A stretch of DNA of 64,000 bases from Bacteroidota bacterium (GTDB lineage Bacteria > Bacteroidota > Bacteroidia > NS11-12g > UBA9320), in contig JABWCE010000001.1 of the NCBI GenBank assembly GCA_013359235.1, positions 1 through 64,000 on the forward strand. The letters are read 5' to 3'. Position numbers and translations under genes: made by a program. This document shows, in pieces, positions 43,037 through 61,299 of the stretch (its first letter is position 1; each line of letters starts with the position of its first letter). The notes beneath the pieces were generated by a model, which saw only the letters and a list, made by a program, of their open reading frames with translations, was not told where the DNA came from and searched no databases.

Positions 43037-43525
43037 ATGTCAGTTGACAATAACTCAAAAGATAACATTTTAAAAATACTTTCTGAAGTGCCCGACCCTG
43101 AGATTCCTGTAATTAGCCTACAAGAACTTGGAATTATCAGAGATGTAAAAATTACTGACAATTTAATAGAAATAATAATTACACACACATATAGCGGCTG
43201 TCCTGCAAATAGTATAATAGAACTCGAAATAAGAACCGCATTGCTCAAAAACGGTATTGAAAATTTTATCATCACATTACAATTATCACCACCTTGGTCA
43301 ACTGATAATATAAGCCCCATAGGTTTAAGAAAACTTAAAGAATACGGAATAGCCCCACCAATAAAATATGTGAATGATATAAATGAAGAAATTTACATAA
43401 TAAACTGCCCGCAGTGCGATTCACAAAATGTAATGCCGGTAAGCAATTTTGGTTCTACTGCATGTAAAGCTCTATACAAATGCAATGATTGTAAAGAACC
43501 TTTTGACTACTTTAAATGTATTTAA
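43037..43525 (+). CDS. paaD: Phenylacetyl-CoA epoxidase subunit PaaD
   Basis: A 162-residue protein matching PaaD (also called PaaJ in some species), an accessory part of the multicomponent epoxidase that converts phenylacetyl-CoA to its ring epoxide. Residues ~10-115 are an MIP18/DUF59-like domain (LSEVPDPEIPVISLQELGIIRDV, then THTYSGCPANSII). The C-terminal ~45 residues hold a zinc-finger-like set CPQCDS...CNDCKEPF. It is the first gene of a short run with paaH and paaJ. The catalytic and electron-transfer subunits (PaaA, B, C, E) are not in this window. Confidence 0.9.
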   Translation: MSVDNNSKDNILKILSEVPDPEIPVISLQELGIIRDVKITDNLIEIIITHTYSGCPANSIIELEIRTALLKNGIENFIITLQLSPPWSTDNISPIGLRKLKEYGIAPPIKYVNDINEEIYIINCPQCDSQNVMPVSNFGSTACKALYKCNDCKEPFDYFKCI

Positions 43526-43546
43526 ATCATAAAAAAAAATTGTGAA

Positions 43547-44707
43547 ATGAAAATAGGTATAGTTGGTTCGGGAGCCATGGGAAGCGGCATAGCACAAACA
43601 GCAGCAATTAATGGTTTTGAAACATTAATTTTTGATAAAAACACAGAAGCACTGCAAAAAGCTGCTGAAACAATTTTAAATTCGATATCAAAATTACAAT
43701 CAAAACAAAAACTCAATTTTTTGCAAGCCGAAAATGCCCGCAAAAACATTTTGCCAATAAATAATCTACATGAATTTGAAAAATGTGACCTTATAATTGA
43801 AGCAGTAATAGAAAATTTAAGTGTTAAAAAAAACGTTTTTGAAGAGCTTGAAACAATTGTAAATAGTGAATGTATTATTGCTACAAATACATCGTCTTTT
43901 ACAGTAACATCAATAGCTTCGGCATGTAAAAATGCACAAAGGGTAATTGGAATTCACTTTTTTAACCCTGCCTATATAATGCCATTGGTTGAAATAATTC
44001 CGGCACTTCAAACCAACCAAAAAACTTTACAAAAAGCTTCAAATTTCATTAAACAACTTAACAAAACACAAGTATTAGCCAAAGACACTCCCGGTTTTAT
44101 TGTAAACCGCATTGCCCGCCCTTTTTACTGTGAATCTTTTAAAATTTACGAAGAAGGTATTGCTGATTTTGCTGAAATTGATTTTGCATTAAAAACTAAA
44201 GGTAATTTTAAAATGGGACCTTTTGAATTATCAGATTTTATTGGTCACGATGTAAATTACAATGTAACAGAATCTATTTGGACTTCAACATATTTTGACA
44301 GCCGTTACAAACCATCATTTTGCCAAAAACAATTATTAAATGCCGGGTACCTTGGTAAAAAAACAAACAAAGGATTTTATGATTATCAAGAAGGTGTTAT
44401 TAAAAACAAAAATACAATAGTTGACGAAAATTTAGCTACATTAATTTTTGAGAGAGTACTTGCAATGCTAATAAACGAAGCCGCCGAAGCGCTTTCAACA
44501 AAAAATGCCAGTATTAACGATATTGAAATAGCAATAGTAAAAGGTTTGAATTACCCCAGGGGTTTGTTCAATTGGGCAAATGATTTTGGAATTGAAAAAA
44601 CTGTTAATATTTTAGATTTATTCTATGAAAAATACAAAGATTCAAGGTATCGTTGCAGCTATATTTTAAGAGAAATGAATATAAAAAAAACATTGTTTGA
44701 ATTTTAA
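43547..44707 (+). CDS. paaH: 3-hydroxyacyl-CoA dehydrogenase (PaaH-like)
   Basis: A 386-residue NAD-dependent dehydrogenase. The Rossmann motif is GIVGSGAMGSGIAQTA (glycines at residues 7, 9 and 12), followed by the NAD-domain segment TNTSSFTVTSIA and the catalytic region GIHFFNPAYIMPLVEI. Two C-terminal 3HCDH domains follow (DTPGFIVNRIARPFY and EAAEALSTKNA). In phenylacetate degradation PaaH oxidises 3-hydroxyadipyl-CoA to 3-oxoadipyl-CoA. The paa neighbours support this role over general fatty-acid oxidation. It starts 21 bp after paaD and ends 8 bp before the thiolase. Confidence 0.9.
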   Translation: MKIGIVGSGAMGSGIAQTAAINGFETLIFDKNTEALQKAAETILNSISKLQSKQKLNFLQAENARKNILPINNLHEFEKCDLIIEAVIENLSVKKNVFEELETIVNSECIIATNTSSFTVTSIASACKNAQRVIGIHFFNPAYIMPLVEIIPALQTNQKTLQKASNFIKQLNKTQVLAKDTPGFIVNRIARPFYCESFKIYEEGIADFAEIDFALKTKGNFKMGPFELSDFIGHDVNYNVTESIWTSTYFDSRYKPSFCQKQLLNAGYLGKKTNKGFYDYQEGVIKNKNTIVDENLATLIFERVLAMLINEAAEALSTKNASINDIEIAIVKGLNYPRGLFNWANDFGIEKTVNILDLFYEKYKDSRYRCSYILREMNIKKTLFEF

Positions 44708-44715
44708 CAAAAAAT

Positions 44716-45918
44716 ATGAAACAAGCATATATAATTGATGGTACACGAACACCAATTGGAAATTTTGGAGGTGTTTTATCAAATTTCAGAACCGATGATA
44801 TTGCAGCATTTGTAATTAGAGAATTGGTAAAAAAAATTCCTGATTTTGATAAAACAAAAATCAACGAAGTGATAATGGGTTGCGCAAACCAAGCGGGAGA
44901 AGATAATAGAAATGTTGCCCGTATGGCTTTATTGTTGGCTGGTTTGCCCGTAACTGTAACCGGAGAAACAGTAAACAGATTGTGTGCAAGCGGTATGGGT
45001 GCTGTTGTAAATGCCAAAAGAGTTATAAACACAGGCGATGCCGATATTATGATTGCAGGTGGTGTAGAGGGAATGACAAGATCACCTTATGTAATATCAA
45101 AATCTGCAAAAGCATTTGGAACTGACTCAAAATTGTACGACAGTAGTTTTGGTTGGCGTTTTATTAACCCCGAAATGAAAAAGCTATATGGAACTGAAGG
45201 GATGGGCGAAACAGCCGAAAACCTTGCAGAATTTTATAAAATTAGCCGACATGACCAAGATTTGTTTGCAGAATGGAGCCAGAAAAAAGCTACTGTTGCA
45301 AAAAATTCAGGAAGATTATCAATGGAAATCTCTCCATTAAAGTATTATAATAAAAACATTGAAACCTTTATAGAACATGACGAATTTATAAAACCATCAA
45401 CTACACTCGAAATTCTAAGCACACTAAAGCCTGCATTTAGAAACGAAGGCAGCGTAACAGCAGGCAATTCGAGTGGATTGAACGATGGTGCAGCAGCAAT
45501 TCTTATTGCTTCAGAAAAGGGAATTAATGAAAATAATTTAAAACCTTTGGCGAGAATTGTTTCATCAGGTACATCAGGCGTAGAGCCACGTATTATGGGA
45601 ATAGGTCCAGTTGAAGCAAGCAAAATAGCATTAAAAAGAGCAGGCATTTCACTCAATGATATTGATGTAATTGAACTAAATGAGGCTTTTGCAGTCCAAG
45701 CACTATCTTGCACACGCCAATTAAAAATAGATGACAATGACAGTAGATTAAACCCAAATGGTGGTGCAATTGCCTTAGGACACCCACTTGGTATGAGTGG
45801 AGCAAGAATAGTATATTCTGCAGCTTTACAACTTAAATTAACCCGAAAAAAATACGCACTTTGTACTCTTTGTGTAGGAGTAGGTCAAGGCTATGCACTT
45901 GTTTTAGAAAGTTGTTAA
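44716..45918 (+). CDS. paaJ: Acyl-CoA thiolase (3-oxoadipyl-CoA thiolase, PaaJ-like)
   Basis: A 400-residue thiolase. The acyl-enzyme cysteine is C90 in NRLCASGMG. The C-terminal catalytic motifs are GGAIALGHPLGMSGAR and CTLCVGVGQG. The stretch GCANQAGEDNRNVARMALLLAGLP is characteristic of the PaaJ/PcaF group, which splits 3-oxoadipyl-CoA into succinyl-CoA and acetyl-CoA; in the phenylacetate route PaaJ also acts on the 3-oxo-5,6-dehydrosuberyl-CoA intermediate. It is the third gene of the paaD-paaH-paaJ run. A plain acetyl-CoA acetyltransferase role is less likely. Confidence 0.92.
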   Translation: MKQAYIIDGTRTPIGNFGGVLSNFRTDDIAAFVIRELVKKIPDFDKTKINEVIMGCANQAGEDNRNVARMALLLAGLPVTVTGETVNRLCASGMGAVVNAKRVINTGDADIMIAGGVEGMTRSPYVISKSAKAFGTDSKLYDSSFGWRFINPEMKKLYGTEGMGETAENLAEFYKISRHDQDLFAEWSQKKATVAKNSGRLSMEISPLKYYNKNIETFIEHDEFIKPSTTLEILSTLKPAFRNEGSVTAGNSSGLNDGAAAILIASEKGINENNLKPLARIVSSGTSGVEPRIMGIGPVEASKIALKRAGISLNDIDVIELNEAFAVQALSCTRQLKIDDNDSRLNPNGGAIALGHPLGMSGARIVYSAALQLKLTRKKYALCTLCVGVGQGYALVLESC

Positions 45919-45981
45919 ACTCAAAAATTGGATTTATTTTAAAAAAAGTTATACACAATTTTTAATTTTTTATTAAAATAA

Positions 45982-46014
45982 TTTGTTATTCTGATTTTTT
46001 TCTTTATACATTTG
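45982..46014 (+). promoter_or_regulatory. Candidate promoter upstream of the small membrane protein and paaZ
   Basis: TTTG at 45982-45985 and TACATTTG at 46007-46014 are 21 nt apart. The -7 element ends 21 bp before the ATG at 46036. The spacer is slightly longer than the usual 19 nt. Confidence 0.5.
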
Positions 46015-46035
46015 ATTTAATAAAATTTTAAAAAT

Positions 46036-46461
46036 ATGAACACAAAAACATTACTCGCCGCCCTTGTTGGCGCAATCACATTCTTTTTATTTGGTTGGTT
46101 GGTTTATGGAATTTTACTAAAATCATTTATGGAAGAAAATTTTAACCATTGTTTGAACAGAAAACCCGAAGAAATGATTATGTGGGCAATGGTTGTAAGC
46201 AATCTGTTTTTTGGTTATTTATTTTCACTAATTTTCTCATGGGCAAAAATCAATGATTTTATGTCAGGCTTAACTAAAGGTGCATTCTTGGGGTTAATTT
46301 TTAGTGCATTTATTGATTTCCAATTTTATGCTATGACTACTTGGTTTAACAACATTACATCAATGATTATTGATATTGTTGTATGGGTGTTAATGTGTGC
46401 AATTGGTGGTGGTGTAATAGCTTATATGCTCGGAAGAGGAAACAGTAGCGAATCAGCATAA
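46036..46461 (+). CDS. Conserved four-helix membrane protein of unknown function
   Basis: A 141-residue inner-membrane protein with four hydrophobic segments (roughly residues 6-26, 48-68, 77-97 and 112-134). The first loop holds a charged, aromatic region with a single Cys (EENFNHCLNRKPEEMIMW). I do not recognise a named family with certainty. It sits between paaJ and paaZ on the same strand but has its own promoter-like element and is followed by a strong hairpin terminator, so it is probably transcribed alone and need not belong to the phenylacetate pathway. Confidence 0.7.
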   Translation: MNTKTLLAALVGAITFFLFGWLVYGILLKSFMEENFNHCLNRKPEEMIMWAMVVSNLFFGYLFSLIFSWAKINDFMSGLTKGAFLGLIFSAFIDFQFYAMTTWFNNITSMIIDIVVWVLMCAIGGGVIAYMLGRGNSSESA

Positions 46462-46490
46462 ACTAAAAAAAACATCTTTTAATAAAAATT

Positions 46491-46521
46491 AAAGCCGGTG
46501 ATTTTGCCGGCTTTATTTTTT
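46491..46521 (+). terminator. Intrinsic transcription terminator
   Basis: A perfect 8-bp stem AAAGCCGG / CCGGCTTT (46491-46498 and 46507-46514) with an 8-nt loop is followed by ATTTTTT. It lies 29 bp after the membrane protein gene and 47 bp before paaZ, so paaZ should have its own promoter or be reached by read-through. Confidence 0.85.
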
Positions 46522-46567
46522 ATAAACTTTTAGCAATTAAAAATGTTTTAAAAATATTTACATATAA

Positions 46568-48619
46568 ATGATAATTCAAAATTATGCCCTTGATGAATGG
46601 GTTATAGGAAAAACAGTTGGTCAAGATTTAATAGATGCAAGCACTGGCGAAATATTTGCAAATACAAGCAGTGATGGTTTAGATTTTGGCGAAATGATGA
46701 AGTATGCCCGAAATACAGGTTCGCCTGCATTAAGAAAACTTACTTTTTACGAAAGAGGTAATATGCTTAAAGCATTAGCTTTTCATTTGCAATCAAAAAA
46801 AGAAAAATTTTACGAAATAAGTTACAAAACAGGTGCAACACGAATTGACAGTTGGATAGATATAGAAGGAGGAATAGGTAATTTGTTCAGCTACGCAAGC
46901 CTTAGAAGAAAATTTTCTGATAAACCATTTCATGTTGAAGGCGAAGCATTAACTCTTAGCAAAAATGGAACTTTTTCAGGTCATCATTTACTTGTGCCCA
47001 AAGAAGGATTGGCACTTCATATAAACGCTTTTAATTTTCCGGTATGGGGAATGTTAGAAAAAATAGCCGTAAACTTACTCGCAGGTGTGCCGGCTATTGT
47101 AAAACCTGCAACTGTAACTAGTTTTCTAACATTTGTAGTATTCAAAGAGATAATTGATTCTAAAATACTGCCAGCAGGATCTTTGCAATTAATTTGCGGA
47201 TCGGCAAACGGAATACTCGAACACTTGACTTTTCAGGATGTTGTAACTTTTACTGGAAGTGCAGAAACAGGGAAAAAACTTAAATCACATCCAAAAATAA
47301 TTGAAGAATCAATCCCATTTAACCTTGAAGCAGACTCATTAAATTGTATGGTGTTGGGCGAAGATGCACATCCGAAAACTGAAGAATTTTCAATTTTTAT
47401 TAATGAAGTAAAACGTGAAATAATTGTAAAAGCTGGGCAAAAATGTACAGCTGTAAGACGTATAATTGTTCCCGAAAAATTTGTAGAAGACGTAAGTAAA
47501 TCGCTTTCTACAGCATTGTCAAAAGTAAAAATTGGCGACCCCAGAACAGAAGGTGTAAAAATGGGTCCCCTCGCCTCTACTACACAAAGAAATGAAGTAT
47601 TTAAAAATCTTGAAATACTACTCAAAGAATCAGAAATAATATTTGACAAACAAAATTGCGATTTTGATGATAATATTGATATTGACAAAGGTTCGTTTGT
47701 ATCACCGGTTATTCTTCTTAATAAAAATCCATTTAAAAATAAAAAAACACACGAAATAGAAGTTTTTGGACCTGTAAGTACAATTATACCCTACAAAAAT
47801 CTTAATGAAGCAATAGAATTATCAAAAATGGGTAAAGGTTCATTGTGCAGCAGTATAACAACGGCAAATGATGCAATTGCAAAAGATTTTGTGTTGGCTA
47901 CTGCTTCGCATCATGGAAGAATTGTAATTTTTAATAAAAATTGCATAAAAGAAAGCACAGGGCATGGCTCTCCATTGCCTAACCTCGTTCATGGTGGACC
48001 TGGAAGAGCCGGTGGCGGTGAAGAAATGGGCGGCATACGAGGTGTAATGCATTATATGCAGCGTACAGCTATTCAAGGCTCTCCAACTACACTTACCGAA
48101 ATTACCGAGATTTTTCAACCAGGCAGCGAATATAAAACGCCCGAAATTCATCTTTTCAGGAAGCATTTTGAAGAACTTGTTGTAGGCGAATCTATTACAA
48201 CACACAAAAGAACTATAACCGAAAGCGATATTGTAAATTTTGCCAACGTAAGTTGGGACCATTTTTATGCACATACCGATGCTACTTCATTAGAAGGAAC
48301 AATGTTTACACAACGTGTAGCTCATGGATATTTTGTATTGAGTGCAGCAGCCGGTTTATTTGTTGACCCTGCAAAAGGTCCGGTTTTGCTCAATTACGGT
48401 TTGGACGAATGCCGTTTTACAAAACCAGTTTATCCAGGTAGTACAATTTATGTAAAGCTCACAGTAAAAGAAAAAGTTAACCAGCAGAAAAAAAATGACG
48501 AAGATATTGCAAAAGGAATAGTAAAATATTATGTTGAAGTATTTGACGAAACCAACGAACATGTAGCAATTGCTACAATTCTTACTATGGTAAAAAAAAT
48601 TAATCAAAATGAAATATGA
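46568..48619 (+). CDS. paaZ: Bifunctional PaaZ: oxepin-CoA hydrolase and aldehyde dehydrogenase
   Basis: A 683-residue fusion that opens the oxepin-CoA ring and oxidises the resulting aldehyde in phenylacetate breakdown. The N-terminal aldehyde dehydrogenase domain (~1-520) has the catalytic E254 (FNLEADSLN) and C293 (AGQKCTAVRR). The C-terminal MaoC-like hydratase domain (~540-675) contains the D-x4-H pair in DHFYAHTD and the helix RVAHGYFVLSAAAGLF. Both active sites look intact and the length equals E. coli PaaZ. paaD, paaH and paaJ lie just upstream, supporting the pathway. PaaZ can also supply the route to tropone-type products when its dehydrogenase half fails. Confidence 0.95.
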   Translation: MIIQNYALDEWVIGKTVGQDLIDASTGEIFANTSSDGLDFGEMMKYARNTGSPALRKLTFYERGNMLKALAFHLQSKKEKFYEISYKTGATRIDSWIDIEGGIGNLFSYASLRRKFSDKPFHVEGEALTLSKNGTFSGHHLLVPKEGLALHINAFNFPVWGMLEKIAVNLLAGVPAIVKPATVTSFLTFVVFKEIIDSKILPAGSLQLICGSANGILEHLTFQDVVTFTGSAETGKKLKSHPKIIEESIPFNLEADSLNCMVLGEDAHPKTEEFSIFINEVKREIIVKAGQKCTAVRRIIVPEKFVEDVSKSLSTALSKVKIGDPRTEGVKMGPLASTTQRNEVFKNLEILLKESEIIFDKQNCDFDDNIDIDKGSFVSPVILLNKNPFKNKKTHEIEVFGPVSTIIPYKNLNEAIELSKMGKGSLCSSITTANDAIAKDFVLATASHHGRIVIFNKNCIKESTGHGSPLPNLVHGGPGRAGGGEEMGGIRGVMHYMQRTAIQGSPTTLTEITEIFQPGSEYKTPEIHLFRKHFEELVVGESITTHKRTITESDIVNFANVSWDHFYAHTDATSLEGTMFTQRVAHGYFVLSAAAGLFVDPAKGPVLLNYGLDECRFTKPVYPGSTIYVKLTVKEKVNQQKKNDEDIAKGIVKYYVEVFDETNEHVAIATILTMVKKINQNEI

Positions 48620-52422: not shown

Positions 52423-54114
52423 TTAAAACGCTATAAGAGAATCTACTTTTTTGAGTATTTTTTCAGCTTCTACTGTGTTTGAATCAAGTATTTTTTTTGC
52501 TTTTTCAGCAAGTTGTTTTGCTTTATTTTTATCTGTAAGTCCTTTTGCATTTATTATTACATTAAAATAAGCTGCATGTACAGCGGTTTTGCAGCAAAGT
52601 ACACCGGCTGCACCATCAGATAAAGTATTTTTATTACCATTATCAATCATTTCAGAAGCAATTTCTAATATCTGAGCAGCTACATCCATTGTTAACAATG
52701 GAATTTCAGTTGCATAGAGTGATGCAGATTCTATAGCTTTTTTTCTAATTTTTATTTCGTTTTCGGTTGTTTTTTGCATTCTAAATGCTTCAATTATTGC
52801 AGCAAATGCCTTTGTATCCTCATCTACAAGCCATAAAAGTCTTTTTTTGAGTTCTTGTGCTTTTTGAGCATATTTTCCAAAGTATTCAAACTTTTCTTCC
52901 CACCCTTTTTTATTAGCACTTACGTTTGCTACCATAGCAGAAAGAGATGCGCCTAATGCACCACAAAGTGCCGCAACCGAACCACCTCCCGGAGCCGTAG
53001 TTTCACTTGCTGTTACATCGGCAAAATCTAAACAGCTAAGATTTACAAGTTTATTTTTATTGTTTTCGAGGCAATATTCTATTATTTTTTTCTCTGGTTC
53101 AAAAGGTGTCAATTCATCTAAACCTAATGATTTTACTGCAATTTGTATTAATTCTTTTTCTGAAACGCCAATACTTCGCCCCTGTTTATTTAGATAGTAT
53201 TTTCCGGCATCGGTAATTGCTTTCAAGGGCACAAGCCCAACTAATTCGCTTCCTGTAATTCTTACCCCTCTTGTCTCAGCACTTTTACAAACTTCGTCAA
53301 AAAAAACATGAATAGGTGTTGTGTTAAAGTTTACAAGATTTGCCGATATTTGAGCAATACCATATTCTTCAATGTACCATCCAATGGCTTTTACATCTTT
53401 ACATTTGCCAGGTATTCTAATTGGTTCTCCATTTTTATCAAGTTCTATTTCGCCAGTGTATTTATTTCCTTTTCTTTTTACCCTACCTGCTTCTCGTACA
53501 TCAAATGCAATTCTGTTCGCAATTCGCGAACTTTTTGAATTGAGATTTACATTGTAAGCAATAAGAAAATCTCGTGCCCCTATAACAGTAGCCCCTGTTT
53601 GTAAATTGAATTCATCATTACCAAAATCGGGTTTCCATTCTTTTTGTTTTATTTTGTTTGAAAATCCTTCGTATTCTCCATCTCTAATTACAGATAAATC
53701 ATTTCTTTTTTTATTTGGTTGTGAGTAGCCATATAAATAAACCGGAATTTTACTGTTTTCTCCTACCCTTTTTGCTAATTTTACTGCATAATTTACAGTA
53801 TCCTCCATACTTATACCGCTAATTGGAATGAGTGGGCAAACATCAGTTGCACCCATTCGTGGATGTTCGCCTTTGTGAAATCTCATATCTATCAACTCTG
53901 CAGCCTTAATTATAGCTTTAAAAGCTGCTTCTATTACACCATCAGGTTCACCTACAAATGTCATTACGGTTCTGTTTGTTGCATAACCTGAATCAATATC
54001 AAGTAATTTTACTCCTTCTACATTACGAATTTCATCGGCTATTTTACTGATTGTTTCTTTATTTCTACCTTCACTGAAATTTGGAACACATTCTATTATT
54101 TGTTTTTCTTTCAT
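52423..54114 (-). CDS. ftcD: Bifunctional glutamate formiminotransferase / formimidoyl-THF cyclodeaminase
   Basis: A 563-residue enzyme that moves the formimino group from formiminoglutamate (from histidine breakdown) to tetrahydrofolate and then releases ammonia. The N-terminal transferase domain opens with IIECVPNFSEGRN and contains DIDSGYATNRTVMTFVG and HKGEHPRMGATDVCPLIP. A C-terminal transferase subdomain (~180-320) precedes the cyclodeaminase domain (~350-563), which has ETTAPGGGSVAALCGALGASLSAMVA. The frame is open to 54138, but the ATG at 54114 matches the family start, and a TATTTTTG -7 box (minus strand, 54123-54130) covers the longer version. Other hut genes are not in the window. 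Confidence 0.93.
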   Translation of the reverse strand: MKEKQIIECVPNFSEGRNKETISKIADEIRNVEGVKLLDIDSGYATNRTVMTFVGEPDGVIEAAFKAIIKAAELIDMRFHKGEHPRMGATDVCPLIPISGISMEDTVNYAVKLAKRVGENSKIPVYLYGYSQPNKKRNDLSVIRDGEYEGFSNKIKQKEWKPDFGNDEFNLQTGATVIGARDFLIAYNVNLNSKSSRIANRIAFDVREAGRVKRKGNKYTGEIELDKNGEPIRIPGKCKDVKAIGWYIEEYGIAQISANLVNFNTTPIHVFFDEVCKSAETRGVRITGSELVGLVPLKAITDAGKYYLNKQGRSIGVSEKELIQIAVKSLGLDELTPFEPEKKIIEYCLENNKNKLVNLSCLDFADVTASETTAPGGGSVAALCGALGASLSAMVANVSANKKGWEEKFEYFGKYAQKAQELKKRLLWLVDEDTKAFAAIIEAFRMQKTTENEIKIRKKAIESASLYATEIPLLTMDVAAQILEIASEMIDNGNKNTLSDGAAGVLCCKTAVHAAYFNVIINAKGLTDKNKAKQLAEKAKKILDSNTVEAEKILKKVDSLIAF

Positions 54115-54159
54115 TTTGAGTGCAAAAATAAGTTTCAAGTAATTATTAAAACCAATTTT

Positions 54160-60518: not shown

Positions 60519-61190
60519 TTAATTTTTTCTTGTTTCTTTTGATAGTTCTAATAATTTTTCTTTGTCTATTATCGTAATTGTTTTTCTATTAATATTTAAA
60601 ATACCTTCTCTTTTTAATTTATTTATTGTTCTTGATACGGTTTCGCGTGTAGAACCTATCATAGATGCAATTTCTTCTTTAGTTATAAAAATTTTATCAT
60701 CTTTGTTTTTAAGAATCATAAGTGCTTTTGCAACTTTTGATAATGATATTCCTGTTACCATTGCAACAGAAAAATCGCTAATGTTTTTTATTTGGTTAAA
60801 CAATGAACGAATAAACAATTGATTATTTTCACTGCTTTTATTCAAAATTTCGCTTATTACATAACGGTTAAATACACAAATTGTAGAATCAGACAGGGCA
60901 GTTGCAGTAGTAAAATAGTTTTTTATAGCCATTGCTGCCACACCAATAAATTCACCCGGATGGGCAATATACATAGTAACAGGATATGGCAAATCATCTT
61001 CTTTTAGCAGCCTTACCTCACCACTAATAATCATGTATATATTTTCGGCAAACTGTCCGTTTGAATATATTAGCGAGTTTTTTTTGAATTGAAGTTTTTT
61101 TACTTCTTTATCAAAAATTTCAGAATCGCGGCTCTTAACAAAATAAGAAAAGCAATTTTGGTAAACGGGGCATGTGTTACAATTTAACAT
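60519..61190 (-). CDS. CRP/FNR-family regulator with FNR-type cysteines
   Basis: A 223-residue DNA-binding regulator. An N-terminal cluster C4-x2-C7-x5-C13 (NCNTCPVYQNC) matches the spacing of E. coli FNR (C20, C23, C29), and C105 in DSTICVF lies where FNR has C122. These four ligands hold the oxygen-sensitive [4Fe-4S] cluster. A cyclic-nucleotide-binding-like fold covers ~30-125, a dimer helix ~125-158, and a winged helix ~160-215 whose recognition helix TRETVSRTI has the E--SR residues used by FNR to read TTGAT half-sites. It is probably an oxygen sensor. It lies between the M1 peptidase and TonB receptor genes, all on the minus strand. Confidence 0.88.
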   Translation of the reverse strand: MLNCNTCPVYQNCFSYFVKSRDSEIFDKEVKKLQFKKNSLIYSNGQFAENIYMIISGEVRLLKEDDLPYPVTMYIAHPGEFIGVAAMAIKNYFTTATALSDSTICVFNRYVISEILNKSSENNQLFIRSLFNQIKNISDFSVAMVTGISLSKVAKALMILKNKDDKIFITKEEIASMIGSTRETVSRTINKLKREGILNINRKTITIIDKEKLLELSKETRKN

Positions 61191-61281: not shown

Positions 61282-61299
61282 TTGTGATAATTATAACAA
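61282..61299. promoter_or_regulatory. Near-perfect palindrome upstream of the FNR-type gene, candidate operator
   Basis: TTGTGATAATTATAACAA reads as two 9-bp halves, TTGTGATAA and (complement) TTGTTATAA, with one mismatch. Its size and TTG...CAA ends resemble CRP/FNR operators, though not the exact TTGAT-N4-ATCAA consensus. It lies 92-109 bp upstream of the regulator's start, in the only gap in that region, so autoregulation is possible. The rest of the 185-bp gap is plain A/T-rich sequence. Confidence 0.45.

Follow-up and report, generated by a model that had tools for sequence, protein, structure and literature searches.

A four-cysteine FNR-type regulator and its candidate operator in a Bacteroidota bacterium

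Introduction

Does a member of the Bacteroidota possess a cluster-based oxygen sensor of the FNR type, and which genes might such a protein control? The question is raised by a CRP/FNR family gene in a Bacteroidota bacterium (contig JABWCE010000001.1, positions 1 to 64,000; this whole 64,000-nucleotide stretch is referred to as the window). The initial annotation of the locus proposed that the encoded regulator carries the cysteine ligands and the recognition helix of E. coli FNR, which many homologues in the phylum lack in part, and that it is linked to oxygen-dependent phenylacetate genes nearby. The features of the locus on which our analysis is based are given below.

60519..61190, minus strand: FNR-type CRP/FNR regulator of 223 aa, assigned from the ORF, the domains, a full-length alignment with E. 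coli FNR and a structure model nearest to holo-FNR
61152..61181, minus strand: codons of the C-x2-C-x5-C motif (C4 at 61179-61181, C7 at 61170-61172, C13 at 61152-61154), kept in the SJ44 orthologue
60876..60878, minus strand: codon of C105, the counterpart of FNR C122, kept in the SJ44 orthologue
60609..60647, minus strand: recognition helix (residues 182-194 in the model), R-E-T-V-S-R
61282..61299: candidate operator TTGTGATAATTATAACAA, an 18-bp imperfect palindrome 91 bp upstream of the regulator ATG

Results

The regulator and its four cysteines

The ORF starts with ATG, and reading of the sequence reveals no alternative in-frame ATG, GTG or TTG between the upstream stop and this codon. 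The protein contains a cNMP-type domain and a Crp-type HTH and is about 20% identical to E. coli FNR. Its only cysteines are C4, C7, C13 and C105, which align with C20, C23, C29 and C122 of E. coli FNR; the spacing is C-x2-C-x5-C followed by 92 residues to C105, the corresponding gap in FNR being 93. The positions and spacings given in the initial annotation are thus all correct. The E. coli FNR query had 251 residues, with one extra residue near the C-terminus and correct ligand numbering; it was compared with A. fischeri FNR and with annotated E. coli fnr (99.6% identical).

Homologues were searched for in 58 relatives, 396 phylum-wide genomes and 108 genomes of the order (overlapping sets), about 500 Bacteroidota genomes, and the best matches were read. 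The single close homologue in these sets comes from the same genus (G001, JADLGN01, 'Bacteroidia bacterium isolate SJ44'; 49% identity) and has exactly four cysteines at the same places, so that the one close homologue available does not lack any of the four. Conservation of the ligand set is based on these two sequences. Because all four cysteines among 223 residues fall on FNR ligand columns, and do so again in a homologue of 49% identity, the pattern is not attributable to chance. In the other members of the genus the best proteins are at most 30% identical to the regulator, and the gene is therefore patchily distributed in the genus. Searches of viral contigs, plasmids and genome contigs gave no close relative besides SJ44, only two weak viral fragments.

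Rarity of the ligand set in Bacteroidota

Most FNR-like Bacteroidota proteins among the best matches read have three cysteines; they form a large class that has CxxC and Cys122 but Ser or Asn in place of the cysteine at FNR position 29. The regulator falls outside this class, since C13 occupies FNR position 29. The full set was found in one further protein among the best family matches read (L019 of genome G013), which is 22% identical to the regulator. In a search of 396 genomes with a profile that included E. coli FNR, the regulator scored 342 bits and the next best protein 151 bits, and no second canonical FNR stood out among the matches read. A literature search of partial coverage found no account of a four-cysteine FNR in Bacteroidota. 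By sequence, the four-cysteine FNR ligand set is very rare in the Bacteroidota sampled.

Several other loci of the family were noted during these searches. The start of the distant four-cysteine protein L019 (1489-2237, G013 contig C33) is preceded at 51 bp by a perfect FNR box, TTGATTTAAATCAA, and its recognition helix carries Lys where the regulator has Arg, at the position of FNR V208. A three-cysteine regulator with Ser at FNR position 29 (L005/L196, G052 contig C12; L196 918-9252) lies in divergent orientation to a cytochrome c gene and nosZ; the DNA between them contains a perfect FNR box, TTGATGTGCATCAA, and a NorB-like gene follows 3.7 kb further on. FNR box counts at both loci were judged against a composition-based expectation. 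The three-cysteine class, frequent in Bacteroidota and equipped with the same ligands as FNR_AF, may be the usual oxygen/NO sensor of the phylum. Many Bacteroidota CRP/FNR homologues, for example L002 (G000 contig C14, 55665-56264), L008 and L035, have what appears to be the end of a response-regulator receiver domain (MGADDYLTKPFDD...) upstream in the same open frame, which suggests receiver-CRP fusions.

Predicted structure and phylogeny

The structure of the regulator was modelled from 66 family members with a mean pLDDT of 87. Among PDB entries, the model matches A. fischeri holo-FNR best (TM 0.88 over 232-233 columns), while TM is 0.84 with PgCRP and 0.75 with dimeric apo-FNR. The three-cysteine paralogue L011, modelled from the same sequences as a control, matches PgCRP and GlxR first and FNR only in 11th place. 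Because the regulator model is nearest to holo-FNR whereas the control is nearest to CRPs, the modelling supports an FNR-like N-terminal region and a fold nearer to holo-FNR than to CRP.

In the tree, the regulator and its SJ44 orthologue form one clade on a long branch. When the topology was left free, this pair was placed on the Bacteroidota side and not with the FNRs. Grouping with four proteobacterial FNR-like proteins was not rejected (AU p 0.32; long branch), nor was grouping with all eight proteobacterial rows (p 0.51).

Recognition helix and candidate operator

The initial annotation stated that the recognition helix keeps the E--SR of FNR. Indeed, E183, S186 and R187 align with FNR E209, S212 and R213, and the 11-residue stretch GSTRETVSRTI is identical in the helix of the SJ44 orthologue. 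However, the position of FNR V208 is taken by R182, the residue used by CRP (R180), and the candidate operator differs from an FNR box, so that the likeness to FNR is partial.

Neither the window nor the rest of the genome contains a second exact match to the pattern of the palindrome TTGTGATAATTATAACAA, and a counterpart, TCGTAATAAGTATCACAA, lies between the regulator and the divergent NDH-2 gene in SJ44. Alone or paired with the SJ44 site, the palindrome does not reach significance (13 of 150 shuffles). The two sites were then combined into a matrix, which was run over ten respiratory upstream regions and picked TTGCGATACTTATCGCAA, located on contig C11 at 20 bp from the start of a cytochrome c gene; this score was reached in none of 300 family-wise shuffle sets, in a test that was not wholly blind as the region had already been seen in a first pass. 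After addition of TTGCGATACTTATCGCAA, the three sites outscore all others in the 0.8 Mb of DNA of this analysis. The case for an operator is made by this third site, because it was found with the two-site matrix and the pair alone is insufficient.

The consensus of the three sites, TTGYGATA-NN-TATCRCAA, combines an FNR-like core (YGAT-N4-ATCR) with a CRP-like outer G, and we infer that it is a candidate operator of the regulator. A hybrid R-E-T-V-S-R helix is expected to prefer such a hybrid site, given the established contacts of CRP and FNR. The core YGAT-N4-ATCR is all that the candidate sites share with the FNR box. Canonical FNR boxes (TTGAT-N4-ATCAA) are not enriched over control in the window or the genome, and neither is the looser TTGTNAT-N4-ATNACAA with one mismatch (47 versus 57 in the reversed control). 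The genome encodes two other CRP/FNR paralogues, of which L003 has a helix (NIQRESATRLL) that is also R-E--R; it could be this paralogue, rather than the regulator, that would bind the candidate operator.

Departures from E. coli FNR

Compared with E. coli FNR, the regulator has P8 in place of S24, T6 of D22, I137 of D154 and R182 of V208. FNR residues 184-189 fall in an alignment gap, so that the 180-190 loop is shortened or absent, and only three residues precede the first ligand. The dimer switch is not of the E. coli type: I151 is kept as I134, D154 is I137 and the loop falls in the gap. Pro at position 24 raises the aerobic activity of FNR (PMC4771820), and it has been proposed that the 180-190 loop transmits changes in the cluster loop to the DNA-binding domain (PMC12937710). 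FnrP has Pro at the same position and Ala at 140 and 154; it reacts with O2 more slowly (29 per M per s, against 180-200 per M per s for E. coli FNR), still monomerises, and responds to NO as well as to O2 (PMC4771820). As FnrP is devoid of these charges, the E. coli-type switch is not shared by all FNRs. Since the counterparts of S24, D22 and D154 are replaced and the loop is shortened or absent, the substitutions are most naturally read as pointing to a sensor that is less labile towards oxygen and whose switch is modified.

Genomic setting

In SJ44, an NDH-2 gene is divergent from the regulator gene, and four genes come after the regulator: one for a small protein, lgt and two for cytochromes c. 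This genome has the same group of four, 4.7 kb past the regulator and just outside the window, which puts the cytochrome c genes of the group 4.7-8 kb from it. On contig C11, the cytochrome c gene preceded by TTGCGATACTTATCGCAA is followed by a small ORF and then NDH-2. Both regulator-bearing genomes contain a CtaD-type cytochrome c oxidase, and in both a small cytochrome c gene precedes a NorB-like gene. The NorB-like haem-copper gene of this genome (G000 contig C29, 156336-158089; L170 6334-8089) has nitric-oxide reductase subunit B as its nearest solved relative. The NorB-like gene is present in 7 of the 58 relatives. Taken with the candidate sites, the setting suggests that the regulator probably tunes cytochrome and NADH-dehydrogenase genes.

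The proposed tie to oxygen-dependent phenylacetate genes did not survive. Genes for paaD, a paaH-like protein, 3-oxoadipyl-CoA thiolase (paaJ/pcaF-like) and paaZ do lie in a row at 43037-48619, in the same window as the regulator. However, they are 12-18 kb from it with unrelated genes in between, the PaaA/PaaC genes are on a separate contig of this genome (C33), and three of the five genus members tested lack the regulator, yet all five have PaaA/PaaC. On these grounds the link was rejected. In addition, no close operator match lies near the paa genes, where the best site (44693) scores 8.9 against 23.9 for the site at the regulator. That the regulator controls phenylacetate genes in response to oxygen is hardly credible on this evidence. 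A separate feature of the window is a single ORF (52423-54138) joining glutamate formimidoyltransferase (FtcD) and methenyltetrahydrofolate cyclohydrolase (FchA) domains.

Discussion

The cysteine set and the modelled fold indicate that the regulator is likely an N-terminal [4Fe-4S] sensor, and by analogy with characterised FNRs it probably senses oxygen (or nitric oxide). In the mechanism that we favour with fair confidence, ligand conservation and fold point to C4, C7, C13 and C105 as ligands of an N-terminal [4Fe-4S] cluster. The cluster-bearing dimer would bind TTGYGATA-NN-TATCRCAA, as suggested by the three sites, two of them next to the regulator genes and one before the cytochrome c gene, and would control its own gene and a part of the respiratory chain. 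Putative targets are the cytochrome c gene near the NDH-2 gene in this genome and the divergent NDH-2 gene in SJ44. As in characterised FNRs, oxygen, or NO, would destroy the cluster and thereby release the DNA. The replaced residues are ones that in E. coli FNR are known to govern oxygen sensitivity and the dependence of dimerisation on the cluster. The regulator is therefore probably adjusted to higher oxygen levels, as is Paracoccus FnrP, and its switching may not involve a complete change from dimer to monomer.

It is possible to read the same [4Fe-4S] architecture as a device whose physiological signal is NO, or both gases, and which handles NO exposure or partial denitrification. The NorB-like and small cytochrome c genes of both regulator genomes and the NO response of FnrP (PMC4771820) agree with such a role. 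However, NorB-like genes are also found in genus members without the regulator (G003 and G006), and the matrix scan found no operator-like site upstream of the NorC-like gene in this genome, which makes this role unlikely. The metal itself is not readable from sequence alone, and four clustered cysteines can also bind zinc; they might otherwise form a redox disulphide switch in place of the cluster, as other CRP/FNR proteins sense redox through a single cysteine (FixK2, PMC12937710). Zinc or a disulphide is nevertheless quite unlikely, given that the spacing and the distant fourth cysteine equal those of FNR and that the fold is closest to holo-FNR.

The altered dimer interface raises a further alternative, namely a constitutive, cluster-bound dimer without a true oxygen switch, whose activity would depend chiefly on how much of it is expressed, a mode proposed for PgCRP. 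The candidate site in the regulator's own promoter is compatible with this, as is I137 at the position of D154, since the D154A substitution makes E. coli FNR a constitutive dimer (PMC4214427). We consider it improbable, as FnrP, with its two alanines, monomerises with O2 all the same (PMC4771820).

The regulator was compared with several known systems. The FNRs of E. coli and Aliivibrio fischeri (PDB 5E44, 8QTO, 9QMC) share with it the C-x2-C-x5-C motif with a distant fourth cysteine, the E--SR helix and the best structural match, and differ in the residues listed above, in the longer N-terminus and 180-190 loop, and in the canonical box, none having been found for the regulator. FnrP of Paracoccus denitrificans shares four cysteines, Pro after the second ligand and an uncharged residue at the Asp154 position, whereas it is of another lineage and its spacing is C-x2-C-x7-C (Cys14, 17, 25 and 113) (PMC4771820); the candidate operator of the regulator departs from it in being CRP-like outside the core. 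FNR_AF of Acidithiobacillus ferrooxidans (PMC6659574) resembles the regulator in its short N-terminus and non-charged residue at 154, and both FNR_AF and the three-cysteine Bacteroidota class have CxxC and Cys122, with Ser (or Asn) in place of Cys at 29. PgCRP of Porphyromonas gingivalis (PDB 2GAU) and bacterial CRPs have in common with it the overall fold, Arg at the CRP R180 position, TGTGA-like half-sites and CRP spacing. However, FNR-like cluster ligands have not been reported for PgCRP, to which the model is less similar.

A bolder, rather doubtful possibility is that the regulator represents a rare Bacteroidota lineage of four-cysteine [4Fe-4S] sensors, of separate origin or divergence from proteobacterial FNR, in which a CRP-type Arg would have altered operator specificity and which would dispense with the Asp154 and 180-190 loop machinery in switching and be set to higher oxygen.

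As hardly any of the Bacteroidota genomes sampled encodes the full FNR ligand set, the regulator is one of few candidates for direct cluster-based oxygen sensing in this phylum. Its helix and candidate operator offer a testable example of a shift in DNA specificity between FNR and CRP, and its natural substitutions at known oxygen-tuning positions probe those rules outside Proteobacteria.
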